25,297 nt of DNA from a virus, in the IMG/VR virus record IMGVR_UViG_3300047300_000529, positions 1 to 25,297 of that record. The stretch is one strand, 5' to 3'. The translations under genes and the position numbers were made by a program. Below, piece by piece: positions 4,000-19,581 of the stretch; positions within the stretch are counted from its first letter, which is position 1, and every line of letters starts with the position of its first letter. Under the pieces are notes generated by a model. It was not told the DNA's origin and searched no databases. It worked only from the letters and a program-made list of their open reading frames with translations.

Positions 4000-4266
4000 A
4001 TGGATAACGGACAAGACACCCCAATGACACCAGCACTAGAACCACAAATGGAAAAAGTAGCTGAACCTAAAGAATGGAGACCTTCAAACAATGAAGCTCT
4101 TCGTGAGTTTGAAATCAACATTAGATTTTTAAGCAGAGGATGTGTTGTAAGAGTGGGATGCAAAGAGATTGCATTTGAAGATCACACTAATGCAATGGCT
4201 GCTATTAACAATTACGTTGCCAATCCTTGGGATGAACAACAAAAATGGCGTAAAATTTTAGACTAA
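4000..4266 (+). CDS. Unknown protein, 88 residues, coupled to the RyR gene
   Basis: The product begins MDNGQDTPMTPALEPQMEKV. Its first 35 residues are Pro/Glu-rich and probably disordered. A compact domain follows (residues about 36-75), with the pattern EFEINIRFLSRGCVVRVGCK then an acidic helix. The C terminus NPWDEQQKWRKILD is helical. Its TAA overlaps the next ATG (A4266 is shared), so it is translationally coupled to the RyR-domain protein and may act with it. No family is recognised. Confidence 0.75.
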   Translation: MDNGQDTPMTPALEPQMEKVAEPKEWRPSNNEALREFEINIRFLSRGCVVRVGCKEIAFEDHTNAMAAINNYVANPWDEQQKWRKILD

Positions 4267-4664
4267 TGAGTGGAACAGTAGAATTTAAAGGCACTCAAGA
4301 GGAATGGGAAGCTTTAAAAAAAGAAAACAGAATCAAATGGATTGCTTGTGTTTGTCACCAAGCAAATAAAGCATGGTGTGAATCTGAAGGAGATGATTCT
4401 CAAAAAGATTGGGCATTTGCAGAAGACTGGCAACGTGATTCAGCAATTAAAGGAGTTAAGTTCCGCTTAGAAAATCCTGATGCAGGACCAGATGCACAAC
4501 ACAATGTTTGGAGTGCAGATAAAATTGCTGATGGATGGGTCTATGGAAACGTTAAGGATGCTGAGAAAAAGACTCACCCTTGCTTAGTTCCATTTGACCA
4601 ATTACCTTTGTTCCAGCAGAAGAAAGACAAATTGTTTAGTGCTATTGTAGATGCACTAAAGTAA
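4266..4664 (+). CDS. RyR-domain protein, 132 residues
   Basis: Almost the whole product matches the prokaryotic/phage RyR-type domain. The N-terminal part shows IACVCHQANKAWCESEGDDS, then an EDWQRDSAIKGVKF helix and ENPDAGPDAQHNVW. The C-terminal RyR signature is DGWVYG.VKDAEKKTHPCLV, then PFDQLP and a final KKDKLFSAIVDAL helix. RyR domains are known from ryanodine receptors and, as stand-alone proteins, from phages and bacteria. There they are thought to recognise a ligand or a modified target, but their function is unproven. This short form has no membrane segment, so it is cytoplasmic. It is coupled to the 88-residue protein upstream and followed by the structured RNA island. Confidence 0.88.
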   Translation: MSGTVEFKGTQEEWEALKKENRIKWIACVCHQANKAWCESEGDDSQKDWAFAEDWQRDSAIKGVKFRLENPDAGPDAQHNVWSADKIADGWVYGNVKDAEKKTHPCLVPFDQLPLFQQKKDKLFSAIVDALK

Positions 4665-9045: not shown

Positions 9046-9276
9046 ATGAAAACTAACCAAGAAAAATCAGCAGAACAGCTCATTAAGGAGCTAGACATTC
9101 TAATTGAAGCAGACTTTGCTAAAGCTAAAGCAGAATTAGAAGAGTTTAAGAATCAACCCAGTGTATTTACTTTGTTCGAAATCACTGAACAAGAAGTAAC
9201 AAATGATGTTATTTGTAGTATCTTTGCAGATGATGATCAATTGTCCGACAGCCATGGAGAAGGTAGTATCGCTTAA
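9046..9276 (+). CDS. Unknown acidic protein, 76 residues
   Basis: The product begins MKTNQEKSAEQLIKELDILI. The first 45 residues are a charged helix (EADFAKAKAELEEFKN), possibly coiled coil. The C terminus is acidic (FADDDQLSDSHGEGS). There is no signal or membrane segment and no recognised family. The leader AATAAAACAGATC repeats that of the gene at 7934. Its 3' end overlaps the start of the next small gene. Confidence 0.65.
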   Translation: MKTNQEKSAEQLIKELDILIEADFAKAKAELEEFKNQPSVFTLFEITEQEVTNDVICSIFADDDQLSDSHGEGSIA

Positions 9277-9412
9277 AAGCAAGATGACTCCTCAGTTTAT
9301 AGACCACTGTAACGAGAAAGGTATAGACTTAGTAAAATGGTACAGATGGCAACTGCATCTAATCTGGGAGCAAAGAAAAATCAGTAGGAATTATAGAAAA
9401 TACACAAAATAA
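9254..9412 (+). CDS. Small basic protein, about 52 residues
   Basis: From ATG 9254 the product is MEKVVSLKSKMTPQFIDHCN onward, ending SRNYRKYTK. It is strongly basic, with FIDHCNEKGIDLVKWYRWQL in the middle, and may bind nucleic acid. The start is uncertain. ATG 9284 gives 42 residues and no overlap with the upstream gene. ATG 9230 lies 3 nt after TATCTTTG (9219-9226), a perfect match to the -7 consensus, and would give a leaderless 60-residue form. No family is recognised. Confidence 0.5.
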   Translation: MEKVVSLKSKMTPQFIDHCNEKGIDLVKWYRWQLHLIWEQRKISRNYRKYTK

Positions 9413-9419
9413 CTTAATT

Positions 9420-9650
9420 ATGTATCGAGTTAATTATCAGATCGACAAACACAATGCTACAATCTTAATGATTTCTGTTAACAACGGAGACTCTTGGTCT
9501 CAGCTTCACAATGAAGCATTAGAAAAACAGATCGAAGAGAAAGTAGTAAAGATTGCTAAAACTTACGAAGTTGACAGTGCTTATGGAGAGATGCATCTCA
9601 CAGAGCAACTTAACTTCATTACAGGTTCCATAGACTTAAGTCAGAAATAA
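9420..9650 (+). CDS. Unknown protein, 76 residues
   Basis: The product begins MYRVNYQIDKHNATILMISV. An N-terminal beta hairpin is likely (YRVNYQI, NATILMISV). A helix follows (LEKQIEEKVVKIAKTYEV), then the end TEQLNFITGSIDLSQK. It is soluble and small, and no family is recognised. Its stop overlaps the next ATG by one base (TAATGG at 9648), so the two are coupled. It starts 7 nt after the previous stop. Confidence 0.65.
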   Translation: MYRVNYQIDKHNATILMISVNNGDSWSQLHNEALEKQIEEKVVKIAKTYEVDSAYGEMHLTEQLNFITGSIDLSQK

Positions 9651-9904
9651 TGGAAAGCATATTTATTGGATTGTGTATTTTATTTGGTGTTTCTGCAGTC
9701 TCTATGGCTATTCTTTTTCTTTTATTTAGACAAAAAGTTAATAATATGCCTGAAGGAAGTATTGTATATGATCACATAGAAGAAGATATTGTCAAGATAG
9801 CTCAAAGAAAGAAACGTAAGGCAGCAAATGCTAAGCGTAAATCTACGACCACTAAAAGAACTAAAGAATCTAAGAGCAATGACAAAGGAAATTCTATGGC
9901 TTGA
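9650..9904 (+). CDS. Small membrane protein with basic tail, 84 residues
   Basis: Residues 1-26 form one hydrophobic helix (ESIFIGLCILFGVSAVSMAI then LFLLF). A short acidic segment follows (PEGSIVYDHIEEDIVK), then a very basic tail (QRKKRKAANAKRKSTTTKRT). The tail would lie in the cytoplasm near the inner membrane and could contact nucleic acid or acidic lipids. Its topology (N-out, basic C-in) follows the positive-inside rule. The last 26 nt overlap the cREC gene. It might be a small accessory membrane protein; no holin-like pair is evident. Confidence 0.72.
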   Translation: MESIFIGLCILFGVSAVSMAILFLLFRQKVNNMPEGSIVYDHIEEDIVKIAQRKKRKAANAKRKSTTTKRTKESKSNDKGNSMA

Positions 9905-10226
9905 TGACTTACGTAACCCTACTCAAGCACAATTTAGAGTTTGGATCACACTTATCTTTGGTGAGGATGTAAAAGTTACTTGGGTAAAAGACTACGATGA
10001 GTTTGTAACTTATCTAACTGAAAATCCTATGCCTGATGGAATCTGTTTTGACCATGATCTTGGTACAGAGTTAACAGGTTTAGATTGTGCAAAATGGCTT
10101 ATAGAATACTGTATGAACAATGCAGTTAGGCTACCAAAGTACTTTGTACACTCTCAGAATCCTGTAGGAAGAGATAACATACAAGGATACCTAGACAACT
10201 ACTTAAAATTTGAAGAGCCCTCTTAA
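9879..10226 (+). CDS. cREC (cyclic-phosphate processing receiver-like) domain protein, 115 residues
   Basis: From ATG 9879 the product begins MTKEILWLDDLRNPTQAQFR. Motifs match the stand-alone cREC family: WLDDLR with Asp9 and Asp10, CFDHDLG (57-62) with Asp58, His59 and Asp60, and VHSQNPVGRDNI (90-101) with His91. cREC is a receiver-like fold predicted from comparative genomics to process cyclic phosphates in RNA repair or nucleotide metabolism. It is unproven biochemically, to my knowledge. An upstream ATG at 9828 is possible, but it would add 17 residues and overlap the neighbour much further. The stop codon lies in the loop of a strong terminator, so this gene ends its operon just before the NAD cassette. 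Confidence 0.82.
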   Translation: MTKEILWLDDLRNPTQAQFRVWITLIFGEDVKVTWVKDYDEFVTYLTENPMPDGICFDHDLGTELTGLDCAKWLIEYCMNNAVRLPKYFVHSQNPVGRDNIQGYLDNYLKFEEPS

Positions 10227-10241
10227 CCGAGGGCTTTTTTA
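10216..10241 (+). terminator. Strong rho-independent terminator
   Basis: AGCCCTC (10216-10222) pairs perfectly with GAGGGCT (10229-10235) around TTAACC, followed by TTTTT. The cREC stop codon TAA (10224-10226) sits in the loop. It separates the upstream operon from the NAD+ cassette. Confidence 0.92.
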
Positions 10242-10263
10242 TTAAACTTAAATTAAACTAAAC

Positions 10264-11148
10264 ATGGTACTAAACTTAGCATACCCAGAAAAATCGCAGA
10301 TAAGATTTAGAGTAAGTAAATTTCCTGACGGTCAACAGTCTATCTGCATTCACACTCCTATAGATGAGAGGTGCAGTATTAAATCTAGATTAAACTCTTT
10401 TCAGGATTTAGAATTAATCATATGTGCAAATCAAGCTATTAAGTCCTTAGATCCTAGTATTAAAGTTAGTTTGTATGTTCCCTATTTTTTAGGAGCTCGT
10501 AGCGACAGACAATTTGAAGTAGGAGGGATTAACTATTTAAAACAAGTTATTTGTCCTATCATTAACAGTCAACACTTTAATGTAGTAAGCGTATTAGATC
10601 CACACTCAGACGTATTAGAAGCTTGTTTAAACAACTTTGTTCGCCCCAGCAACAACTTTGCCTTAGTTAGATATGCTTTAGAGGAAGATAAAATCAAAGG
10701 ACCTAATGCAGTATGTCTAGTTTCACCAGATGCTGGAGCATTAAAAAAAGTATTTAATGTTGCTAAACAATTTAAAATCGAAAATGTAGTAACTGCAGCT
10801 AAAGTTCGTGACTTAAAAACAGGTGAAATTATTAGGACTGAAGTACCTAATCTGCCTATCAGTACTACTGAAGAAGAACTAAAGTATGTGATTGTAGACG
10901 ACATTTGTGATGGAGGTAGAACATTTATTGAGTTAGCTAAAGCAATCAAAGAACAAAGACCAGAAGCTAAAATTTACTTAGTAGTAACTCATGGTATTTT
11001 TAGTGCTGGATTCGATTACCTAGTTCAATACTTAGATGGTATATACACAACAAACAGTGTAAAGGATATACAAGATGGTGGTATCGTTGACACATTCTCA
11101 AAACACAAAACAATCCACTCATTCGTTAAACAATTAAACGTATTTTAA
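10264..11148 (+). CDS. prs: Phosphoribosylpyrophosphate synthetase homologue (Prs or NARP1 Adps type), 294 residues
   Basis: A pyrophosphokinase of the PRPP-synthetase fold. It transfers pyrophosphate from ATP to ribose 5-phosphate or, in the NARP1 variant, to ADP-ribose. Seen: an ATP-binding GARSDRQFEVGG (77-88, like the YARQDR region of Prs), the LDPHSD motif with His114, flexible-loop KVRD (180-183), and the PRPP-binding signature VIVDDICDGGRTF (209-221), followed by THGIFSAGF. At 294 residues it is slightly shorter than cellular Prs (about 315). It starts after a strong terminator and an A/T-rich leader and precedes the NAMPT homologue by 16 nt, so the pair form one transcript. Whether the substrate is ribose 5-phosphate or ADP-ribose cannot be told from motifs alone. 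Confidence 0.92.
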   Translation: MVLNLAYPEKSQIRFRVSKFPDGQQSICIHTPIDERCSIKSRLNSFQDLELIICANQAIKSLDPSIKVSLYVPYFLGARSDRQFEVGGINYLKQVICPIINSQHFNVVSVLDPHSDVLEACLNNFVRPSNNFALVRYALEEDKIKGPNAVCLVSPDAGALKKVFNVAKQFKIENVVTAAKVRDLKTGEIIRTEVPNLPISTTEEELKYVIVDDICDGGRTFIELAKAIKEQRPEAKIYLVVTHGIFSAGFDYLVQYLDGIYTTNSVKDIQDGGIVDTFSKHKTIHSFVKQLNVF

Positions 11149-11164
11149 AAACATAAAAAATAAT

Positions 11165-12652
11165 ATGAACCCACTATTATTAACCGATGGCTACAAGGTA
11201 GGTCATCATCAACAGTACCCGAAAGGAACTACTTTAGTTTACTCTAATTTTACTCCTCGTTCAAACAAGTATGCTCCTAAAGGATGCGAAGAAGTAGTTG
11301 TCTTTGGAACACAAATGGTTATGCAACAATTGCATGAAGCATTCCAAGACAATTTCTTTACTAAACCTAAAGATCAAGTGTGCGGAGAGATGAAGCGTGA
11401 GCTCTCCCTGTATTTAAATACCGACTATGATGTATCTCATTTTGAAGCATTACATGACTTAGGCTATTTGCCTATTGAGGTTAAGGCACTAACAGAAGGT
11501 ACTAAAGTACCAATGAAGGTTCCTGTGTTAACTATCTACAATACACTACCTGAGTTTTATTGGATTACAAATTATCTTGAAACTATTTTGTCTAATCTGC
11601 TTTGGAAGCCAATGACTTCTGCTACCATTGCTCATCAATACAGAAAAGTATTGACTAAATGGATGGAGAAAACAGACATAGAAAGAGCATGGTTTATTGA
11701 TTGGCAAGGTCACGACTTCTCAATGAGAGGTATGGACTCAGTTGATGCTGTGATTAGTTCAGGATTAGGTCACTTAACTTCATTTTTAGGCTCAGATTCT
11801 TTGCCCACTATTTATGGTGCTGGAAAATACTATAATGAACAAGGAATGGTTTGTGGCAGTGTAAATGCAACCGAACACTCAGTAATGTGTGCTGGAGGTA
11901 AAGAAGATGAAGTAGAAACATTCCGTAGGTTGTTAGAAACATATCCTACAGGAATCTTATCTATTGTTTCAGACACTTGGGACTTGTGGAAAGTTTGTAC
12001 CGAGCATATAGTTACTCTTAAAGAAGAGATTATGGCTCGTGATGGTAAGTTAGTTATTCGTCCTGATTCAGGTGATCCTGTTGATATTCTTTGTGGTTTA
12101 AGTAAATCTGAATGGATTTTTGATATTATAGAACACAAAAAAGTTTATAGATCATCTGAAGCTATAAGAAAAGGAGTAATTGAACTTCTTTGGGATGTAT
12201 TTGGAGGAACAGTTAACGAACAAGGTTACAAAGTTCTCGATTCTCATATTGGAGCTATCTACGGTGATTCAATTACAATCGACAGAGCTGATGAAATTTG
12301 TAGACGTTTAGAGGCAAAAGGATTTGCTTCAACCAACGTAGTATTAGGTATAGGCTCATTTACGTACCAGTATAACACACGTGATTCATTTGGTTTTGCA
12401 ATGAAAGCAACTTACTGTGAGATTGATGGTGTAGGCAGAGAAATCTTTAAAGATCCTATCACAGATGACGGTACTAAAAAGTCAGCTACAGGTTTGTTGG
12501 CGGTATTCAAAAACGAGAATAACGGAAGCTACCAATTACACGATCGTTGTGATTGGGAAACTACAAAGAAAGGAGAACTTAAAACCATCTACAAAGAAGG
12601 AGAGTTCCACAACACTACTACACTCTCAGAAATTAGAGAACGTTTAAAATAA
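11165..12652 (+). CDS. nampt: Nicotinamide phosphoribosyltransferase homologue (NAMPT or NARP1 Namat type), 495 residues
   Basis: A full-length type II phosphoribosyltransferase that joins nicotinamide to PRPP, giving NMN, or in NARP1 to ADP-ribose pyrophosphate, giving NAD+ directly. Conserved regions include LLTDGYKVGHHQQYP (Asp8, Tyr10), DWQGHDFSMRG (179-189), SSGLGHLTSFLGSDSLPTI with Asp211, the catalytic TEHSVM (His238, equal to human His247), and IRPDSGDP with Arg299 and Asp301 (human Arg311 and Asp313). Length equals that of cellular NAMPT. It lies 16 nt after the Prs homologue and is followed by a hairpin. Phage copies help restore NAD+ during infection, either as general salvage or against NAD-depleting defences. 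Confidence 0.95.
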   Translation: MNPLLLTDGYKVGHHQQYPKGTTLVYSNFTPRSNKYAPKGCEEVVVFGTQMVMQQLHEAFQDNFFTKPKDQVCGEMKRELSLYLNTDYDVSHFEALHDLGYLPIEVKALTEGTKVPMKVPVLTIYNTLPEFYWITNYLETILSNLLWKPMTSATIAHQYRKVLTKWMEKTDIERAWFIDWQGHDFSMRGMDSVDAVISSGLGHLTSFLGSDSLPTIYGAGKYYNEQGMVCGSVNATEHSVMCAGGKEDEVETFRRLLETYPTGILSIVSDTWDLWKVCTEHIVTLKEEIMARDGKLVIRPDSGDPVDILCGLSKSEWIFDIIEHKKVYRSSEAIRKGVIELLWDVFGGTVNEQGYKVLDSHIGAIYGDSITIDRADEICRRLEAKGFASTNVVLGIGSFTYQYNTRDSFGFAMKATYCEIDGVGREIFKDPITDDGTKKSATGLLAVFKNENNGSYQLHDRCDWETTKKGELKTIYKEGEFHNTTTLSEIRERLK

Positions 12653-12668
12653 AGTAAAGTAAAATTAT

Positions 12669-12694
12669 GTGGGGAGAGATAAAACTTTCCCCAC
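12669..12694 (+). terminator. Hairpin after the NAD cassette
   Basis: GTGGGGA (12669-12675) pairs with TCCCCAC (12688-12694) around GAGATAAAACTT. No T-run follows. It is the third member of the GGGGAGAGA hairpin family in this window. Confidence 0.55.
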
Positions 12695-12720
12695 TATAAT
12701 ATAAAACTATAAAAAGACAA

Positions 12721-12876
12721 ATGAGTATTGTAGTTATACCTTATGATGCAAAGTGTAAGCATTGTCGACACTGTGGTACAAAAAAGAATACCAGAGGAAG
12801 AAGACAAGCTTATTGCGAACTAAAACAAGAATTTATTAGGCTAAAAGATAAAGCCTGTGAAAAACTAGAATTATGA
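12721..12876 (+). CDS. Small zinc-ribbon-like protein, 51 residues
   Basis: The product begins MSIVVIPYDAKCKHCRHCGT. A CKHCRHC cluster (residues 12-18) followed by AYCEL (Cys32) gives enough Cys and His for one zinc site. The segment between is basic (KKNTRGRRQ), and the C terminus is a charged helix ending KACEKLEL. It could bind nucleic acid through the zinc knuckle. The TGA overlaps the next ATG (ATGA at 12873-12876), supporting real coding and coupled translation. No exact family is recognised. Confidence 0.72.
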   Translation: MSIVVIPYDAKCKHCRHCGTKKNTRGRRQAYCELKQEFIRLKDKACEKLEL

Positions 12877-13619
12877 CGAACATAAAAGAAAGGTTTCTTA
12901 ATGGTGAGTTTGGAGAAATCTATCAGTCTGATGCACTTGCAAGACTTAAAGAAAGAGTTCAGCAACGTAAAGAATTTAAAAAAAGAAAAGAAAACATGGG
13001 TAAAATAGACAAAAACAGCAGATTTTATAAGCCTCCTACCCTAGAAGAGCGCTTAGAAAACATTAAGTATTTCTTTCTCTTTTGGAGAGGAAGAAAGAAG
13101 GGTATGATTTTTACCCGTAACATTACATTAGATGATTTCCGCTATATCTTCTTTCCCAAAGGATTTGAGAAGTATGGTTACTTAGGAACACATTTATGGC
13201 ATGAAGAAGGTGATTACTTTAATGCTCTTTATCCCTTAGTACTTGCATTAGACCATGAAGCTAAGCCTAAATTCTGCCCTAGGTGGTTTTTACGCTTCCT
13301 TCACGTATTTGGTTGTGATAGATCTATTGTAAGAGTACGTAGCTGGACCTTGCATAACTTGCTTAGAAAACTAACTAAAGGTATTGCCTTTGTAGATTGG
13401 AAGACTAAGTGGCAAAGTTATGACTTACGTATCTCTATAAATGCTCCTAAGCACTTACAAGACCTAGCAGAGGATATAGAACATGGATTTTACTCTAGAG
13501 GTAAACAGAAAGAACTCGCTTACTTTATTAAGCAAGCAGATCCAGAAGCCTTTATTATCTGGGGTAGTGTAGAAAGACTAGAGAAACAGTTAGAAGAACT
13601 AATGACAAAAAAACTATGA
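12873..13619 (+). CDS. Unknown protein, 248 residues
   Basis: The product begins MTNIKERFLNGEFGEIYQSD. Residues 20-50 are very basic (LKERVQQRKEFKKRKENMGK). The central part is rich in aromatic residues: YFFLFWRGRKKG, then DDFRYIFFPKGFEKYGYLGT. A second aromatic-basic block reads PKFCPRWFLRFLHVFGCDRS. The C terminus has HGFYSRGKQKELAYFIKQAD and a helical tail. No transmembrane helix is clear. The high Arg/Lys/aromatic content suggests a nucleic-acid or nucleotide contact, but no catalytic motif is recognised. It is coupled at both ends by 4-nt ATGA overlaps. Confidence 0.75.
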   Translation: MTNIKERFLNGEFGEIYQSDALARLKERVQQRKEFKKRKENMGKIDKNSRFYKPPTLEERLENIKYFFLFWRGRKKGMIFTRNITLDDFRYIFFPKGFEKYGYLGTHLWHEEGDYFNALYPLVLALDHEAKPKFCPRWFLRFLHVFGCDRSIVRVRSWTLHNLLRKLTKGIAFVDWKTKWQSYDLRISINAPKHLQDLAEDIEHGFYSRGKQKELAYFIKQADPEAFIIWGSVERLEKQLEELMTKKL

Positions 13620-13882
13620 GTAACGATAAACAAACAACAGCACTAGATGATCATCTTATATGGCTTAGAAAACAATTACAAAACGCTATTGATGATGGGG
13701 AATCTATAAGTTGGATTTATGCTTACCGATTAGCTATTAAAAACGCTGAGTCGCTATTAGATAAAGAGTCAGACATAATAATCAAAGCATATGAAGAGGA
13801 TTATTTATCAGGAGAGACAGGTGGACCACGTTATTTGAGTGGTGCTGAGTATTACAACGCTAAATTTGCCGATGACAACTAA
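13616..13882 (+). CDS. Small phage protein of the KQ-tag family, 88 residues
   Basis: The product begins MSNDKQTTALDDHLIWLRKQ. The M-S-N-x-K-Q-T/S tag and the C-terminal LSGAEYYNAKF match the pattern seen at 8547 (KQSS tag, AEQYYNQTYG) and 14286, so it belongs to the same family of small acidic helical phage proteins of unknown function. Unlike the other three members it has no GGAGGT upstream; its ATG overlaps the previous stop instead. Its own end overlaps the next gene by 11 nt. Confidence 0.8.
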   Translation: MSNDKQTTALDDHLIWLRKQLQNAIDDGESISWIYAYRLAIKNAESLLDKESDIIIKAYEEDYLSGETGGPRYLSGAEYYNAKFADDN

Positions 13883-14075
13883 ATATTTACCTCGTGGACC
13901 ATACCCAGTAAAGTTATACCCTTGGAAAGTTATGGCAAAAATCGCAATAGATCACGCCAGTAATAATAAGTATTATTTATACGCAACCCCTCGAAGTTTT
14001 TTTGTTGGATACAAAAAGAAACTTACAAGAAAAGAACAACTATCTTTGAGGGCACACTTAATTTATAAACCATGA
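13872..14075 (+). CDS. Small basic protein, 67 residues
   Basis: From ATG 13872 the product begins MTTKYLPRGPYPVKLYPWKV and is basic and Tyr-rich, with an alpha/beta pattern (KIAIDHASNNKYYLYATPRS) and a basic C terminus (KKKLTRKEQ). An ATG at 13839 in the same frame would overlap the previous gene much more and is less likely. TAAATTTG at 13861-13868, a perfect -7 element match, lies 3 nt before the chosen ATG and could yield a leaderless mRNA. No family is recognised. Confidence 0.62.
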   Translation: MTTKYLPRGPYPVKLYPWKVMAKIAIDHASNNKYYLYATPRSFFVGYKKKLTRKEQLSLRAHLIYKP

Positions 14076-14293
14076 ACAATAACTCACACCGATTCAAAGT
14101 AATTGCAGAAACAGGAAATGGGTGGAAGCAATTATCTTTTACATTCACTGCAGTATCAACACCTCGTTGGTGGCAATTTTGGATGAGAGAAGTTAAACCT
14201 CAAGAATTCACGGCTTCCATGTGGGTAAAACCAGAAGACAAACTAATACTTCACAGTCCAATACTAGAAACCAGAGGAGGTACCTATGAGTAA
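14072..14293 (+). CDS. Unknown protein, 73 residues
   Basis: The product begins MNNNSHRFKVIAETGNGWKQ. It looks beta-rich, with alternating hydrophobic strands (FKVIAET, LSFTFTAVS) and a Trp-rich turn (STPRWWQFWMREV). The end reads EDKLILHSPILETRGGTYE. It is soluble and may form a small beta barrel or sandwich. It overlaps its neighbours by 4 nt at the start and 8 nt at the end. The GGAGGT encoding its last residues serves as the ribosome-binding site of the next gene. No family is recognised. Confidence 0.68.
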   Translation: MNNNSHRFKVIAETGNGWKQLSFTFTAVSTPRWWQFWMREVKPQEFTASMWVKPEDKLILHSPILETRGGTYE

Positions 14294-14546
14294 AGACAAA
14301 CAAAATAGCATTGAGTGGCTAGATAATAAACTAGCAAGTTTAAACTTTGACTACCTAACAGGGCAAATAAAAAACAAGGAGTTTAACGAAAGACATAAAC
14401 AAGTACTTAAGTTAGCTAAAGCAATGCACTTTAATGAACAAGAGCAAGTATTGTTTAAGTACTTTGAGTGGCATAAGCGTAAGGGCTATGAGAAACATGA
14501 GCTAGATCACTTTACAGAATTTTATAAAGAAACTTATGAAAGCTAG
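14286..14546 (+). CDS. Small phage protein with KQNS tag and AKAMH motif, 86 residues
   Basis: The product begins MSKDKQNSIEWLDNKLASLN, with LAKAMHFNEQEQ near residue 43 and a final HFTEFYKETYES. It is the closest relative in this window of the protein at 8547 (KQSSIE tag, QAKAMHKEE, YYNQTYGE). It is helical and charged, and its role is unknown. A GGAGGT site (14276-14281) lies 4 nt before the ATG, as in the 8167 and 8547 members. It overlaps its neighbours at both ends. Confidence 0.87.
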   Translation: MSKDKQNSIEWLDNKLASLNFDYLTGQIKNKEFNERHKQVLKLAKAMHFNEQEQVLFKYFEWHKRKGYEKHELDHFTEFYKETYES

Positions 14547-14865
14547 AGAATACACATCTAAAACCTTACAAGAACTTATAGATGAGGTAACAGTTGGAGA
14601 ATTGGAGGCTACTAGTAAGAGTATGGAACCTTTAACCCCTAAAGCAGAAGCTCAAGATTTAGTTTTATCTTTCTACTACAGATTACCTAATAATGGCAGA
14701 CTTAAAACCGGGATTAACAGTTGTGAGTCTCGGTTTAAGGAAGCTGTAATGTGCGCTAAGTTAACTCTTGAAAGGATTATATTAGCTCTAGAAGCCCACA
14801 GTTGGCAAAACAGAGAACATATAGAGCACCATAAAGAAATGTTAAAAGAAATAGAAAAGCTATGA
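14536..14865 (+). CDS. Unknown protein with PKxxA/EIEKL pattern, 109 residues
   Basis: The product begins MKAREYTSKTLQELIDEVTV. From residue 34 it shows LTPKAEAQDLVLSFYYRLPN, then a Cys-containing helix EAVMCAKLTLERIILALEAH, and ends EMLKEIEKL. The next protein (14862) has the same order: TPKEKAQELL, AKECALIAVDEIL and VKEEIEKL. The two are paralogues, this one with an extra N-terminal segment. Small helical proteins of this sort are common in Bacteroidota phages, with no known role. Its ATG overlaps the previous gene, and its stop overlaps the next. Confidence 0.78.
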   Translation: MKAREYTSKTLQELIDEVTVGELEATSKSMEPLTPKAEAQDLVLSFYYRLPNNGRLKTGINSCESRFKEAVMCAKLTLERIILALEAHSWQNREHIEHHKEMLKEIEKL

Positions 14866-15056
14866 CACCAAAAGAAAAAGCACAAGAATTACTAAATAAG
14901 TTTATCCAAACAAATGGTAATGCCTTTTTTGCAAAAGAATGTGCATTGATTGCGGTTGATGAGATTCTAAATATGCTTGTAGGAATTTACGATTACGATC
15001 GTGAAGTACTTTATCCATATTGGCAACAAGTAAAAGAAGAAATAGAAAAACTATGA
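14862..15056 (+). CDS. Small helical phage protein of the PKEKA family, 64 residues
   Basis: The product begins MTPKEKAQELLNKFIQTNGN and ends YPYWQQVKEEIEKL, with AKECALIAVDEILNML in the middle. This is a short helical protein seen repeatedly in Bacteroidota phages and prophages, from general knowledge, with no assigned function. The paralogue upstream (14536) and a more distant one at 16704 share the same three blocks. It is coupled to both neighbours through ATGA overlaps. Confidence 0.85.
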   Translation: MTPKEKAQELLNKFIQTNGNAFFAKECALIAVDEILNMLVGIYDYDREVLYPYWQQVKEEIEKL

Positions 15057-15406
15057 GCAAGATTAAACAAGACAAAATACCTATGACATTAACGGAAGAT
15101 AATGTTTTAGAAGTTCTTGGCTACAAGTATAAACTGGTTAGAGAAAGAGATAATCTACTTAACTTTGGTGATAAAGTTGGATGGGTTGAGTGGAAACCAG
15201 ATGGTACTTTTGGAAAACTACATGACAAACCTGCTGTTGGCCTATCTTGTATCTTAGACCCACATAGATTTAGTTTTACTTGGTTAACAACTTCTATTAC
15301 AGAAATCTTAAAAGAACAAGACGATTATATTAAGTTTGAAACCTCAAATAGCACATACGAACTATGGCACGGACAACAAGAGAACAAAAACGACAACAAG
15401 CAGTAA
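15053..15406 (+). CDS. Unknown protein, 117 residues
   Basis: From ATG 15053 the product begins MSKIKQDKIPMTLTEDNVLE. It has a helical N-terminal segment (NVLEVLGYKYKLVRERDNLL), then a beta-rich region with WVEWKPDGTFGKLHD and PHRFSFTWLTTSITEILKEQ. It ends in a flexible GQQENKNDNKQ tail. It is soluble, with no catalytic motif recognised. The ATG overlaps the previous stop (ATGA). An in-frame ATG at 15020 would lie inside the upstream gene and is less likely. The 3' end overlaps the next gene by 43 nt. Confidence 0.7.
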   Translation: MSKIKQDKIPMTLTEDNVLEVLGYKYKLVRERDNLLNFGDKVGWVEWKPDGTFGKLHDKPAVGLSCILDPHRFSFTWLTTSITEILKEQDDYIKFETSNSTYELWHGQQENKNDNKQ

Positions 15407-15648
15407 TAGACATCATCAATCAGATGTTTGTTATTGCAGGTCATGAAGTCACTTATGATGACATTAAAGACCGTAAAGATGACTGGTTTACTCAGTGGAC
15501 TATGACTACTGCTCAATCAGAAGAATGGAGAAAGTGGGGAGTAGCTTACTTACGTACTAATCTTAAGATGACTAAGAAGTTAGCAGAGAAAGAAATGGCC
15601 TGGTTCAATGTACAATGGGGACTTAAATACTCAGACTATAATATCTAG
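15364..15648 (+). CDS. Conserved small phage protein, WTxxxSEEW type, 94 residues
   Basis: The product begins MARTTREQKRQQAVIDIINQ. The pattern MFVIAGHEVTYDDIKDRKDD then WFTQWTMTTAQSEEWRKWGV, with AEKEMAWFNVQWGLKY at the end, resembles the protein at 24226 (VNVDYDSIDF-like, DWYEKHTWTTEQE, FGWDT). Both belong to a small phage family of unknown function. It is soluble and Trp-rich. It overlaps the upstream gene by 43 nt; a later start would lose the basic N terminus but is not excluded. Confidence 0.75.
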   Translation: MARTTREQKRQQAVIDIINQMFVIAGHEVTYDDIKDRKDDWFTQWTMTTAQSEEWRKWGVAYLRTNLKMTKKLAEKEMAWFNVQWGLKYSDYNI

Positions 15649-15652
15649 ACTA

Positions 15653-15859
15653 ATGGAAGAACTTAAATTAGATTTAAAAGGATTCACTGCTAAGCAATAT
15701 GCTGCCCTTATCCTCAGAGATGACTTAGGCTATAGCTATGGGAGAGCAGGAAGACAATTAGGACTTCACAGGTACGCTTTTAGAGAGCTCTATAAGCGAG
15801 CTGTATTTAAAGCAGAAAACAAAATTATTTATGCTGACCCAAATTTCGTATTACTGTAA
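15653..15859 (+). CDS. Helix-turn-helix protein, 68 residues
   Basis: From ATG 15653 the product begins MEELKLDLKGFTAKQYAALI. The segment ILRDDLGYSYGRAGRQLGLH followed by RYAFRELYKRAVF fits a helix-turn-helix of the sigma-70 region 4 or Sak/Trp-repressor type: a helix, a turn at LGYSYG, and a recognition helix (GRAGRQLGLHRYAFRELYKR region). It would bind DNA and may regulate transcription of phage genes. An in-frame ATG at 15608 would overlap the upstream gene by 41 nt and is less likely. The 3' end overlaps the GNAT gene by 29 nt. Confidence 0.65.
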   Translation: MEELKLDLKGFTAKQYAALILRDDLGYSYGRAGRQLGLHRYAFRELYKRAVFKAENKIIYADPNFVLL

Positions 15860-16307
15860 GAAAGATCCTAGATACTTTCAGTTTATTACAGATCATTTTG
15901 GAGTACAATTTACAGAAAAGTCGTTTGACGACCCTACTTTAACAGTGCATGCTATCCAAGACGGACTTGATATAGTAGCTGTAATGTTAATTAGAAAGAA
16001 AAAAGAATGCTATCGTATTAACTTCATTCATGTAGCAGAGAAATACCAAAGACAAGGTTATGCAACTTTTCTAATGGATTATGTTATTAAATGTATCCAT
16101 GAAGAGACAAAAGACTTTGTAACTGTAATTACAAGAGTTAAAGCCAACAACTTAGGTTCGCTTAACTTCTTTACTAAAGCAGGTTACAAATTTAAAACCT
16201 ATGAGTGTAGAAGTGAGACAGTTGATATTAACGGAAGCATTACAACAACAATTAAACCAGCTTATATACTAACTTATGACTACGGAAAAGAAAATCCTTT
16301 TAAATAG
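15831..16307 (+). CDS. GNAT-family N-acetyltransferase, 158 residues
   Basis: Transfers an acyl group from acetyl-CoA to an amine; the substrate is unknown. The core GNAT order is visible: strands with INFIHVAEKYQRQGYATFLM, where QRQGYA (about 74-79) is the pyrophosphate-binding R/Q-x-x-G-x-G/A loop (motif A) followed by its helix. Then ITRVKANNLGSLNFFTKAGY is the typical N..S..FY.K.GF segment of motif B. The N terminus (KDPRYFQFITDHFGVQF) is variable, as usual for the family. It is cytoplasmic. Phage GNATs may modify host proteins, aminoacyl groups or toxins. The ATG lies inside the previous gene (29-nt overlap), and the next gene overlaps its end by 32 nt. Confidence 0.85.
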   Translation: MLTQISYYCKKDPRYFQFITDHFGVQFTEKSFDDPTLTVHAIQDGLDIVAVMLIRKKKECYRINFIHVAEKYQRQGYATFLMDYVIKCIHEETKDFVTVITRVKANNLGSLNFFTKAGYKFKTYECRSETVDINGSITTTIKPAYILTYDYGKENPFK

Positions 16308-16677
16308 GATTAAAACACCCGATGGTACTATCCTTACTTCTTATAATCGACATGATTATGTGACCTACAAGGATACCATTACTAAAGAAGTTCTTATGGT
16401 AGATGGAGGAACAGATTATCTTAGAAGGCATGTAGGAACTTTTGAAGAGTTAAGCGTCTATGACGATGGCTCACACTTAACCAGAAGAGAAGCTGTTCAT
16501 TGGGGCACAAGAGGTAAGGATGGAAAACAACCCTTAGTTTACAAACCAATTAAAGACTTAGACTTTGATCACATAGAAGCTATACTAAAAACTCAACACC
16601 AACTTTCAGACTTTTACAAAGAGGTGTTTAAAGATGAGTTAAAATATAGGTTCGAAGAGAAGGCAGAAAAACTTTAA
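16276..16677 (+). CDS. Conserved Bacteroidota phage protein, 133 residues
   Basis: The product begins MTTEKKILLNRIKTPDGTIL. The pattern NRIKTPDGTILTSYNRHDYV, then MVDGGTDYLRRHV, ELSVYDD, GTRGKDGKQPL and a helical C terminus ending ELKYRFEEKAEKL is a recurring protein in phages and prophages of Bacteroidota, as I recall. No function is known. It is a mixed alpha/beta soluble protein. It overlaps the GNAT gene by 32 nt; translation through both is likely from one mRNA. The next start at 16704 has its own -7 element. Confidence 0.85.
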   Translation: MTTEKKILLNRIKTPDGTILTSYNRHDYVTYKDTITKEVLMVDGGTDYLRRHVGTFEELSVYDDGSHLTRREAVHWGTRGKDGKQPLVYKPIKDLDFDHIEAILKTQHQLSDFYKEVFKDELKYRFEEKAEKL

Positions 16678-16691
16678 GTTGTAGATTTTAG

Positions 16692-16699
16692 TATATTTG
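16692..16699 (+). promoter_or_regulatory. -7 promoter element TATATTTG next to a start codon
   Basis: TATATTTG matches TAnnTTTG exactly and ends 4 nt before the ATG at 16704, so a transcript would be leaderless or nearly so. No clear TTG element is visible 19 nt upstream. Confidence 0.5.
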
Positions 16700-16703
16700 T
16701 AAC

Positions 16704-16931
16704 ATGAGTCCCAAACAACAAGCTGCTGCAATGGAGGTAGAAATTATGAAGACATTAGGTTTTCAAATGGATTACTACAGATTTAAACAGATTGCCAACT
16801 ACACTATCGACAAGATTATCTCTGAGTATAGAGATATGGATAACTATGTTAAGGCAAATGATCGCTCCATGCACAATGCAATTTTATTCTGGCAAGAAGT
16901 AAAACAACACATCAATGAAAGAAGCATGTAA
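16704..16931 (+). CDS. Small helical phage protein, PKQQA type, 75 residues
   Basis: The product begins MSPKQQAAAMEVEIMKTLGF. It shares the S/TPKxxA opening, a central helix QIANYTIDKIISEYRDM and the ending LFWQEVKQHINERSM with the proteins at 14536 and 14862 (TPKEKA, YWQQVKEEIEKL), so it is a third, more distant member of that family. No function is known. The start lies 4 nt after a perfect -7 promoter element. Its end overlaps the next small membrane protein gene by 17 nt. Confidence 0.8.
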   Translation: MSPKQQAAAMEVEIMKTLGFQMDYYRFKQIANYTIDKIISEYRDMDNYVKANDRSMHNAILFWQEVKQHINERSM

Positions 16932-17064
16932 GAATATTGGAAGAAAAGTTAAGGATACTAATCGAATGACTAGTAACGAATTCTTCGCATTCTCTCTTCT
17001 CTTTGTCTCCGTATTCTCCGTATTAATAGGTTTTGTAGTAGACTTACTAGGGATTTTGCCTTAA
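16915..17064 (+). CDS. Small single-pass membrane protein, 49 residues
   Basis: From ATG 16915 the product is MKEACKNIGRKVKDTNRMTS followed by one strong hydrophobic helix (FFAFSLLFVSVFSVLIGFVV, residues 23-42) and DLLGILP. The N terminus is basic and would stay in the cytoplasm, giving N-in/C-out topology. Small phage membrane proteins of this form include holins, antiholins and exclusion proteins, but no specific family is recognised. It overlaps the previous gene by 17 nt, and its stop codon lies within the promoter element of the next gene. Confidence 0.65.
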   Translation: MKEACKNIGRKVKDTNRMTSNEFFAFSLLFVSVFSVLIGFVVDLLGILP

Positions 17065-17069
17065 CTTTG
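17062..17069 (+). promoter_or_regulatory. -7 promoter element TAACTTTG next to a start codon
   Basis: TAACTTTG matches TAnnTTTG and is followed by TATC and the ATG at 17074. The same TTTGTATCATG string precedes tRNA-Leu at 3883-3893. A transcript from here would be leaderless. The upstream TTG element is not clear. Confidence 0.5.
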
Positions 17070-17073
17070 TATC

Positions 17074-17271
17074 ATGGAGTATACGTTAAGCGAAGAAGGT
17101 ACAGTCATAGAATTCCATTTGATTGTAAAGACTATGAAGAAGAATGAAGATTACAAGTTTTACTCAGAAAAAGAACGAGACAGAGCTTTTAAAGAAGCAC
17201 TACAAGAAAAGAACTTACTACTAGCTCATCGTTACAAAAGAGACAGCGAAAAGAAACCAGAAGAAATTTAA
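17074..17271 (+). CDS. Unknown small protein, 65 residues
   Basis: The product begins MEYTLSEEGTVIEFHLIVKT. A beta hairpin (VIEFHLIVKTM) is followed by a highly charged helix (SEKERDRAFKEALQEKNLLL) and a basic/acidic tail. No family is recognised. Its ATG lies 4 nt after a -7 promoter element (TAACTTTG), and a strong terminator follows at 17293, so it can form a single-gene transcript. Confidence 0.68.
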   Translation: MEYTLSEEGTVIEFHLIVKTMKKNEDYKFYSEKERDRAFKEALQEKNLLLAHRYKRDSEKKPEEI

Positions 17272-17292
17272 ATTAAAACAAAGAATTAACAG

Positions 17293-17317
17293 AAAGCACC
17301 TCTAGGGGTGCTTTTTT
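17293..17317 (+). terminator. Rho-independent terminator
   Basis: AAGCACC (17294-17300) pairs with GGTGCTT (17307-17313) around TCTAGG, followed by TTTT. It lies between the gene ending at 17271 and the ATG at 17347. Confidence 0.88.
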
Positions 17318-17346
17318 ATTTTAAAAACAATTTAAACCAAAACAAT

Positions 17347-19581
17347 ATGCCTAATTCACAATCACAGGAGCTAATTGCAGCTCAAATCATTGACGATCCA
17401 TTTTCAATGGAGTTTATGGAAACAGCAAATACTGTTCAAGTATCTGCTCAGTCACTTGCTAGCTTACCTAAAAGAAAAACAAAGGTAGTAAGAGACAAAT
17501 TTGTATTACACAAAGACTTAAAAAGTCGCTTAAACAAGCTAATCGAAAGCAACTGTTCTGAACAAGCAAAAACAATAGCCAGAGAGATTCTTAGTCTTAA
17601 GTATGTTCCTACAGAAGGAAAGTATTGTAACTATTTAGGTTTATCTCAAGCGGACTATACTAAGATTTCTTATCTAGATAAGGACCGTGAAGAAAGACTC
17701 GCAGGACAAGAAACCACAATGCAGATGATTCGTCCAGGAACTATTCTTAAAATCTATATTCAAAAAGGTAGACGTAGAGATAAAATGGCTATGCCAGAAA
17801 ACCCTACTAGAGATGACTTAACCCATACATATCAATTAAGATTAACCTCTAGACACTTAGATGACAGAGTTTATCCTATTGATCATGTACAAGATAGTAC
17901 TGCAACATTTGAGCAACAATTCTGGAACGATGAACCGGCTCAAGCTTATTCTATTGAATTTAAAAACACTTATCTATCCGAAGAATCAGGACTACTCCGC
18001 ATTCGTAACTCTAGAACTCGAGGAACAGGTGGGTTTGAAGTAGGTAGACAAGGAATGTATCTACGTCCGAATAACTGGGATAGAGTAGTAGCTGTAGAGT
18101 TTGAAAATACTTCCGTAGTAATCAAAGAAGTATGGAACTTTAAGAAGCGTTATCACACTTCTATTGGTAAGATTGTACGTAGGTTGTTTGGAGACAAGTA
18201 TTCAGATAGAGAAGTTACTGCATTTGCAGAAGCCTATGCCTCTTTGATTACTGTGTCTAATCCTCTGTACGATTTTGCTATCATCGAAGGAGAAGATATT
18301 AAAGATGCTTACTATGAAGATAACTACTATCAACATTCAGGCACTCTAGGCAACTCTTGTATGCGTTACTATAACTGTCAGAGGTATTTCCAAATCTACA
18401 CTAAGTATCCAGACAAAGTAAAGATGGCTGTACTTAAAAGATCAGGTAAGATTGCTGCTCGTTGTATTATGTGGAATATTAATGGCAAGTTTATGTTTGA
18501 CCGCATTTATTTTATAAATGACGAGACTCATAACTTGCTTAAGAACACATTAATAGGAGCTGGTTATGAGACTCTGTTTCAAGTTCATCAAGATTTCTCT
18601 TTGAACATTGACTTATCAGGTATTCAACATTTTCCTTACGTAGATACTCTACACAACTACGATCCTAACAATAAGATTTTAACAAACAAATATCTTAGGG
18701 ATGAGTATTGGCAGTTTAGATCTACTGGAGGTGCTTTTAGTCGATACAATACAAGCGACAGAGTACAGTGTCATTGTTGCGGTGCAGAAATTGAAGAAGA
18801 TGATGCTACTTATCTTACTGCAGGTGAGTACGAAGGTCAAGAAGCTTGCAGTAATTGTTACATTTATTGTGAAGTAGATGATTCGTACATTTCAACAGAA
18901 GACGATTCGATAGAAACTTATGACGGAGAAACTAGTCTTACATCTAGGACTATTAGGCTAAATAACGGACAGTATGCTCACCAGGATGACGATCAGCTCA
19001 GAGAGTATGAGAATGGTTTCGGTTATTTTATTCTAGATGAAGACTTCTACTTTACTGATGGAAATCTTTTCTATCATAAGAATGATCCAAACATCCCTGA
19101 AGAAGCTTATGACTCTGACGAAGTTAGTAGAAGAGAAGAAGAACAAAGAAGAACAGCACTTGAAGCACTACGAGCCAGAAGAGAAGAACAGGCTCAATAT
19201 GAAACAAATGCAAATTCAGGTACACTATATTCAACATTTACTGTTCCTACTGGATATCTAACCGCTACTGCTTATAATATGTACGACACTAGCTTAAATT
19301 CAAGTTCAATTTCAGGATTAAACACATGGCCAACCACAGGATCAAATCCAATAGTAGAACAAGTTCGTGAAACACTAGAAGCACTAGTTACTGATCTTAT
19401 TACTGATTCACAAGCTATGGAAGCAATAACGACTCCAGAAATACCTGTGCCTAACATGGAAATCTCTTTAGAAGAGGTAAGAAACGACTCAGAAGCTATG
19501 GAAGCTAGTGCTCAAGGAGAAGCTGAGTTTACTATGTGGTCACAGATTCCTGATGAAGCTCCTAGAGAGATGCCTTTTTAA
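17347..19581 (+). CDS. Large phage protein with GNSCMR motif and zinc ribbon, 744 residues
   Basis: From ATG 17347 the product begins MPNSQSQELIAAQIIDDPFS. The earlier in-frame ATG at 17308 lies in the terminator's T-run and is rejected. A central block reads SGTLGNSCMRYYNCQRYFQI, then YPDKVKMAVLKRSGKIAARC and FMFDRIYFINDETHNL. I recognise this arrangement from uncharacterised proteins of large phages. Next comes a zinc-ribbon-like segment: CHCCGAEI, then ACSNCYIYC. The C-terminal third is acidic and low in complexity, with a Glu/Arg helix (SRREEEQRRTALEALRARRE) and Ser/Thr-rich stretches. There is no membrane segment. The invariant Cys in GNSCMR could be catalytic or metal-binding, but no function is established. 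It forms its own transcript between a terminator and an A/T-rich spacer. Confidence 0.85.
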   Translation: MPNSQSQELIAAQIIDDPFSMEFMETANTVQVSAQSLASLPKRKTKVVRDKFVLHKDLKSRLNKLIESNCSEQAKTIAREILSLKYVPTEGKYCNYLGLSQADYTKISYLDKDREERLAGQETTMQMIRPGTILKIYIQKGRRRDKMAMPENPTRDDLTHTYQLRLTSRHLDDRVYPIDHVQDSTATFEQQFWNDEPAQAYSIEFKNTYLSEESGLLRIRNSRTRGTGGFEVGRQGMYLRPNNWDRVVAVEFENTSVVIKEVWNFKKRYHTSIGKIVRRLFGDKYSDREVTAFAEAYASLITVSNPLYDFAIIEGEDIKDAYYEDNYYQHSGTLGNSCMRYYNCQRYFQIYTKYPDKVKMAVLKRSGKIAARCIMWNINGKFMFDRIYFINDETHNLLKNTLIGAGYETLFQVHQDFSLNIDLSGIQHFPYVDTLHNYDPNNKILTNKYLRDEYWQFRSTGGAFSRYNTSDRVQCHCCGAEIEEDDATYLTAGEYEGQEACSNCYIYCEVDDSYISTEDDSIETYDGETSLTSRTIRLNNGQYAHQDDDQLREYENGFGYFILDEDFYFTDGNLFYHKNDPNIPEEAYDSDEVSRREEEQRRTALEALRARREEQAQYETNANSGTLYSTFTVPTGYLTATAYNMYDTSLNSSSISGLNTWPTTGSNPIVEQVRETLEALVTDLITDSQAMEAITTPEIPVPNMEISLEEVRNDSEAMEASAQGEAEFTMWSQIPDEAPREMPF

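Follow-up and report, generated by a model that had tools for sequence, protein, structure and literature searches.

The two adjacent genes at the centre of the window, by which we mean the whole 25,297-base stretch analysed, are most probably a minimal NARP1 cassette of just two genes, encoding an Adps and a Namat; we put the probability of this reading at roughly 0.9. It follows from the selectivity-clamp signature of the second protein, a first protein that is not of the housekeeping type, the invariable pairing of these two types in the loci sampled (121/121), and well-supported splits in two phylogenetic trees. The pair is thus a clear new example of an already known system and not a new kind. 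Since the window is the entire virus record IMGVR_UViG_3300047300_000529, the record is probably a genome fragment.

Table 1. Features of the window, and example neighbours in related loci (given as locus:positions)
Feature	Position	Strand	Remarks
RyR-domain protein, RyDEP-like	4266..4664	+	PF02026, E 8.8e-13; 5.6 kb upstream of pair
cREC (cyclic-phosphate processing receiver domain, PF20274) gene	9828..10226	+	directly upstream of pair
Terminator-like U-tailed hairpin	10212..10239	+	-16.3 kcal/mol, z -5.2; splits pair from upstream cREC gene
Adps-type gene (ADP-ribose pyrophosphokinase, Prs fold)	10264..11148	+	complete ORF, ATG start, 294 aa
DPHSDV motif, residues 112-117	10597..10614	+	replaces DLHAxQIQG of housekeeping Prs (alignments, housekeeping controls)
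DDICDGGRTF sugar-phosphate loop, residues 212-221	10897..10926	+	replaces DDxxDTAGTL of housekeeping Prs
Namat-type gene (nicotinamide ADP-ribose transferase, NAMPT fold)	11165..12652	+	complete ORF, ATG start, 495 aa
Selectivity-clamp loop SCL, TPRSNKYAP, residues 30-38	11252..11278	+	K35 aligns with SPbetaL1 R40
Catalytic histidine codon, H238	11876..11878	+	residue map from SPbetaL1 Namat
Selectivity-clamp helix SCH, GSFTYQYNTRD, residues 397-407	12353..12385	+	11/11 residues identical to SPbetaL1 Namat
Hairpin 3' of pair	12664..12700	+	-19.5 kcal/mol, z -6.4; without U-tract
Between-gene macro type, viral relative	L039:2803-3318
Between-gene NADAR type, viral relative	L054:3976-4452
Between-gene deoxyribosyltransferase-like type, viral relative	L051:4511-4996
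Between-gene HAD-like type, viral relative	L080:4552-4986
Bacterial neighbour, KptA type	L144:2110-2655
Bacterial neighbour, ADP-ribosylglycohydrolase type	L142:1370-2275
Bacterial neighbour, macro type	L185:2131-2640

The earlier note placed the two genes 16 nt apart, and both open reading frames are exactly where it had them, with the Adps-type gene upstream (Table 1). It also described the pair as set off by a strong terminator upstream and a hairpin downstream. The downstream hairpin is indeed strong and the upstream stem is U-tailed and terminator-like, but a simple terminator consensus scan did not list the stem at 10212-10239. A promoter scan returned fewer sites than in shuffled sequence and is not used as evidence. 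The leaders (10250-10264 and 11149-11164) are AT-rich and carry no obvious Shine-Dalgarno sequence for either gene, which together with the Bacteroidota relatives hints at a host in the Bacteroidota. A near-identity search of the window across phage records found nothing.

The second gene had been taken for a complete NAMPT homologue with its key residues kept, and this is confirmed. The 495-aa product passes NCBIfam NF006629 (NAMPT/NadV) at 560 bits against a cut-off of 405, has Pfam matches to PF04095 and PF18127 (NAMPT_N), and contains the NAMPT catalytic core and phosphorylated histidine (D8, Y10, F185, R188, D211, H238, R299, D301 and others), retaining every mapped catalytic residue of SPbetaL1 Namat. 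For the crystallised SPbetaL1 Namat, an adenine clamp formed by SCH and SCL has been published as a signature (PMC12774641, 2026); the SCH consensus is GSX-Phi-X-Phi-X-Phi-TRD with aromatics at positions 3 and 7, and the SCL stacking rule calls for Arg, or for Lys or Tyr followed by a stacker (PMC12774641). The window protein conforms to this consensus, with F399 and Y403 as the aromatics, and to the stacking rule, with K35 followed by Y36, the stacking residue expected next. When 21 residues (20 NAD+-contacting residues and the catalytic His) were mapped from that enzyme, 19 proved identical, the two exceptions being R40 to K35, allowed by the published rule, and A362 to S369, a position at which the majority of the other Namat-clan rows in the comparison also have Ser.

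Some relatives depart from the SCH pattern. PDB 9ke8 (u166688), a Namat-clan NAMPT-fold structure, has GAQTYQRNTRD, with both clamp aromatics missing, and atypical SCH motifs occur in Adps-linked phage homologues from PAK_P1 (L099, GSYTYQCNTRD), LMTA-94 (L106, GAYMYSFSLSRD) and PH357 (L112, GSYANLEGNTRD). Given these Adps-linked phage homologues, the published SCH consensus may be too narrow.

The first gene, described earlier as encoding a PRPP-synthetase fold, bears that description out. Its product passes PF00156 (Pribosyltran), and the top PDB matches of its AlphaFold2 model (pLDDT 90.5) are all PRPP synthetases, at 15-22% identity. Against the Prs family TIGR01251 (ribose-phosphate diphosphokinase), it scores only 79.7 bits, below the cut-off of 113. 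The two loops listed in Table 1 account for the contrast with housekeeping enzymes that we use here: in four genomes, the housekeeping Prs have DLHAxQIQG and DTAGT/DTGGT loops, whereas in Adps-type paralogues from those genomes the sequences are DPHS/HPHS and DGG(G/R)TF. This DGGRTF/DPHS partner signature is an empirical contrast from the present analysis and not a published determinant; we infer that it reflects a 5'-phosphate pocket open enough to admit the remainder of ADP-ribose.

The two signatures go together. Of the Namat-type genes sampled, 121 had a detected neighbour, and in every case that neighbour has the Adps-type loop. The other motif type, GG(G/A)LxxxxxRD, is found in phage Nampts (L102-L105) that have a NadM/Nudix neighbour or no Prs-like one, as well as in cellular Nampts (L209, L214, L216), the Xanthomonas (Xcc) Nampt and mammalian Nampt. 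A maximum-likelihood tree of 66 NAMPT rows separates a Namat clan, including the window, SPbetaL1, ICP1 and Bacteroidota proteins, from a Nampt clan with 100/100 support, nine canonical Nampts lying on the other side of a branch of length 1.8; within its clan, the window Namat groups with proteins from viral contigs (L033, L038, L059), with 88% identity to that of L038. In the corresponding Prs tree (59 rows), a long branch with 100/100 support sets the five housekeeping Prs apart from the rest as a clade, and the window Adps groups with viral Adps, at 66-69% identity to L008. Midpoint rooting was used for both trees, and support is weak at some deep nodes, more so in the Adps tree. Phylogenies had been proposed as a check, with grouping among cellular Prs and NAMPT counting against NARP1; instead both window proteins fall outside the cellular Prs and Nampt clades, at 100/100.

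In the NARP1 pathway, Adps would use ATP to pyrophosphorylate ADP-ribose at C1 of its free ribose, giving ADPR-PP, and Namat would then replace the pyrophosphate with nicotinamide, yielding NAD+ in one step. During infection, NAD+ split by TIR, SIR2 or similar host defence enzymes into ADP-ribose and nicotinamide could be rebuilt in this way. The sequence of the window pair shows the fold, the intact catalytic residues, the ADPR-PP clamp, the type of partner, the phylogenetic placement and the adjacency of the genes; both reactions and the anti-defence role we infer from characterised homologues. The SPbetaL1 NARP1 enzymes have been proven biochemically (PMC12774641), and with the ICP1 homologues NrsAB, NAD+ was higher in infected Nezha cells (PMC11559045).

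Ordinary salvage would instead have the first protein convert ribose 5-phosphate to PRPP and the second combine PRPP with nicotinamide to form NMN, leaving the host to complete NAD+. The folds are the same as those of Prs and NAMPT, the characterised Namat still converts PRPP to NMN in vitro (PMC12774641), and such pairs exist in bacteria: in L214, a canonical Nampt lies directly beside a canonical Prs, with both canonical signatures present. Neither window protein, however, has the canonical signature or belongs to the canonical clade, and the Adps-type protein falls short of the curated Prs cut-off. We therefore rejected ordinary Prs plus Nampt salvage, which the GSFTYQYNTRD, DGGRTF and DPHS motifs, the partner type and the trees make very improbable, although PRPP salvage may persist as a side activity of the window Namat. 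NARP2 (Nampt plus an NMN adenylyltransferase) was also rejected, as the motif is the wrong one and the scanned window ORFs, from a record that is a fragment, gave no NadM/NadR-type Pfam or NCBIfam match. The earlier note's candidate NARP1 assignment thus gains support, with the activity a predicted one, from the clamp signature, a partner without housekeeping Prs signatures and the 100/100 tree splits. Its remark that sequence alone does not decide the pathway is outdated, since the published Namat clamp signature, the partner type and the trees do discriminate. Sequence is now enough to tell which pathway a Prs-NAMPT pair runs, through two independent signatures, one per protein, that co-vary in every sampled pair.

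Among known systems, NARP1 of the Bacillus phage SPbetaL1 (PDB 9w5w/9w5x by sequence match) shares its gene order with the window. Its Namat is 55% identical to the window protein, with an identical SCH motif and the catalytic residues kept, and its Adps (30% identity) lacks DTAGT, as does that of the window. The differences are in the SCL, which has R40 where the window has K35-Y36, and in an insert that is 14 residues longer in the window protein, at about residues 313-326. NrsA-NrsB of Vibrio phage ICP1 (PMC11559045) is likewise an Adps/Namat pair and belongs to the same clans as the window pair in both trees (52% identity for the Namat half, 33% for NrsA); the ICP1 pair is supported by genetics and NAD+ measurement, whereas the window pair is known from sequence. 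The low identity of the Adps half to both characterised partners counts against the NARP1 reading. Chromosomal NARP1-like loci of Bacteroidota (Maribacter, Tenacibaculum, Aquimarina and others) encode Namats 57-65% identical to the window protein with the same SCH motif, and most of those with enough flank have an Adps neighbour, but the gene order is often reversed or spaced, and KptA, ADP-ribosylglycohydrolase (ARG), macro and NrtR-Nudix genes are found nearby. The NARP2-type or plain NadV Nampts of phages Phaeobacter MD18, CcrRogue, BcepSaruman and Klebsiella 05F share the NAMPT fold and core catalytic residues, but differ in having a GG(G/A)L-type motif, a short SCL, and a NadM/Nudix neighbour or no Prs-like one.

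The cREC gene upstream of the pair is a possible functional associate in its own transcription unit. Its start is probably at 9879, judged from the relative in L259. Genes of the cREC family also occur near NARP1 in L032, L060 and L092, and adjoin the pair in L259 and L060; the predicted targets of the family are cyclic phosphates, which it would open in RNA ends as well as in ADP-ribose derivatives (PMC9503650). In contig G203 (L259:3746-5281, G203:C1), a close relative, the Namat gene is interrupted immediately downstream of the SCH motif; the insert measures about 1 kb and contains a 254-aa ORF that looks homing-endonuclease-like, and an Rfam search of the split gene for an intron gave no match. 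In a second related contig, G202 (L257/L258, 111 kb), compared with window positions 9052-17742, the sequence is colinear as far as 10211 and resumes at 15653; were the ends of the contig joined, about 1 kb would occupy the place of the cassette, although no end repeat was found. This hints that G202 represents an empty site, and the cassette region resembles an island that can be exchanged.

The RyR-domain protein is a second possible associate of the pair. RyDEP hydrolyses the Thoeris signals 2'cADPR and 3'cADPR to ADP-ribose, using residues Q54, H75, W78, H100 and D117, with H75/D117 as the catalytic dyad (PMC13232231). Q56, H79, W82, H104 and D121 of the window protein correspond to these, matched by motif and spacing (+4 for H75, W78, H100 and D117) and not by direct alignment with the DyoEdafos sequence. 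All five are conserved across 27 phage relatives, D121 in 25 of the 26 having the site. The RyR-domain model (pLDDT 93.3) resembles known RyR domains, but no match falls below E 0.001. The closest relative of the protein (98%) is on a 72-kb contig without a NAMPT gene (L219/G196).

These observations raise the possibility that the cassette is one arm of a larger anti-Thoeris system in which the RyR protein turns a cyclic ADP-ribose signal into ADP-ribose, and the pair turns this into NAD+. The conserved RyDEP residues and the colinear order RyR..cREC-Adps-Namat in G203 speak for such a system. A RyR-domain protein and NARP1 also occur in one phage in mycobacteriophage DyoEdafos, where RyDEP lies inside the NARP1 operon (PMC13232231). 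Against the proposal, many genes and a tRNA fill the 5.6-kb gap in the window. Moreover, the window is the only one of 64 NAMPT-bearing records searched whole to have a RyR gene, G203 being a further case, and the pair is present in just two of 26 RyR-bearing relatives. Seven of eight tested RyDEP homologues left the signals undegraded, most binding without cleaving, and the RyDEP residues are also kept in non-hydrolysing homologues (PMC13232231). Because most tested homologues bind without cleaving, the RyR protein could equally be a sponge or a signal-cleaving enzyme, and we regard the anti-Thoeris arm as a doubtful proposal. Membership of the RyR gene in a NARP1 operon found no support, only two NARP1 contigs with RyR having been found (window and G203). 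NARP1 gains a metagenomic phage lineage whose record also encodes a RyDEP-like protein.

Beyond the NARP1 assignment, the ADP-ribose-capture context is the most interesting remainder. We considered 72 viral loci with both genes, comprising 52 kb between the pair genes and 524 kb outside. Several gene types lie between Adps and Namat in many of their occurrences: macro (11/16), NADAR (3/4), DUF3307 (6/10), PF15891 deoxyribosyltransferase-like (12/18) and a HAD-like protein (12/18) that has no Pfam match and is named from its motif. Binomial p-values for this enrichment reach 3e-9, but they ignore shared ancestry, and the counts are not phylogenetically independent. Macro genes occur beside or between the pair independently in Vibrio phages JSF12 and Kronos, Pseudomonas PAK_P1 and Pseudoalteromonas PH357, and the proximity of NADAR to phage genes for NAD+ salvage had been remarked on before the discovery of NARP1 (PMC9503650). 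Among bacteria, we found the Namat-type gene in 80 loci, nearly all from Bacteroidota, with an Adps-type gene within the 5-kb flank in 49; nearby are KptA (30), ADP-ribosylglycohydrolase (24), macro (19+9), NrtR-like Nudix (35) and calcineurin-like phosphoesterase (40) genes. This suggests that in bacteria the pathway may reuse the ADP-ribose left by RNA repair and de-ADP-ribosylation, a role we did not find stated in the literature searched, which excluded the original NARP1 description. The counts thereby provide a testable idea of what bacterial NARP1 is for: recycling the ADP-ribose released by KptA, ADP-ribosylglycohydrolase and macro-domain enzymes.

It might then be asked whether the window pair performs NARP1 chemistry with RNA-repair or ADP-ribosyl metabolism (KptA, macro, ARG, NADAR, cREC), and not a defence NADase, as its main source of ADP-ribose. 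The cREC gene directly upstream, and adjoining the pair in L259 and L060, the genes between Adps and Namat in viral loci, and the KptA, ADP-ribosylglycohydrolase and macro genes of the 80 bacterial loci all point that way. On the other hand, a terminator stands between cREC and the pair, KptA is missing from all 57 NARP1/NAMPT phage records, window included, so that a phage-encoded KptA was rejected as the source, and the enrichment counts carry the dependence noted above. Defence and recycling roles are, moreover, not mutually exclusive, and we consider a mainly metabolic source unlikely. Somewhat less doubtful, though still tentative, is a broader form of the NARP1 reading, in which the pair would be the sink of a wider phage network for ADP-ribose capture, and the bacterial versions likewise for KptA and ADP-ribosyl turnover. 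A putative RyR-domain glycosidase and cREC in the window, and macro, NADAR and deoxyribosyltransferase-like proteins in relatives, would release ADP-ribose from signals, from adducts and from by-products of RNA repair, and Adps and Namat would return it to NAD+. SPFH/Band 7 proteins were also seen near the cassette in 17 viral loci (for example, L058:2330-3232), never between the pair genes.
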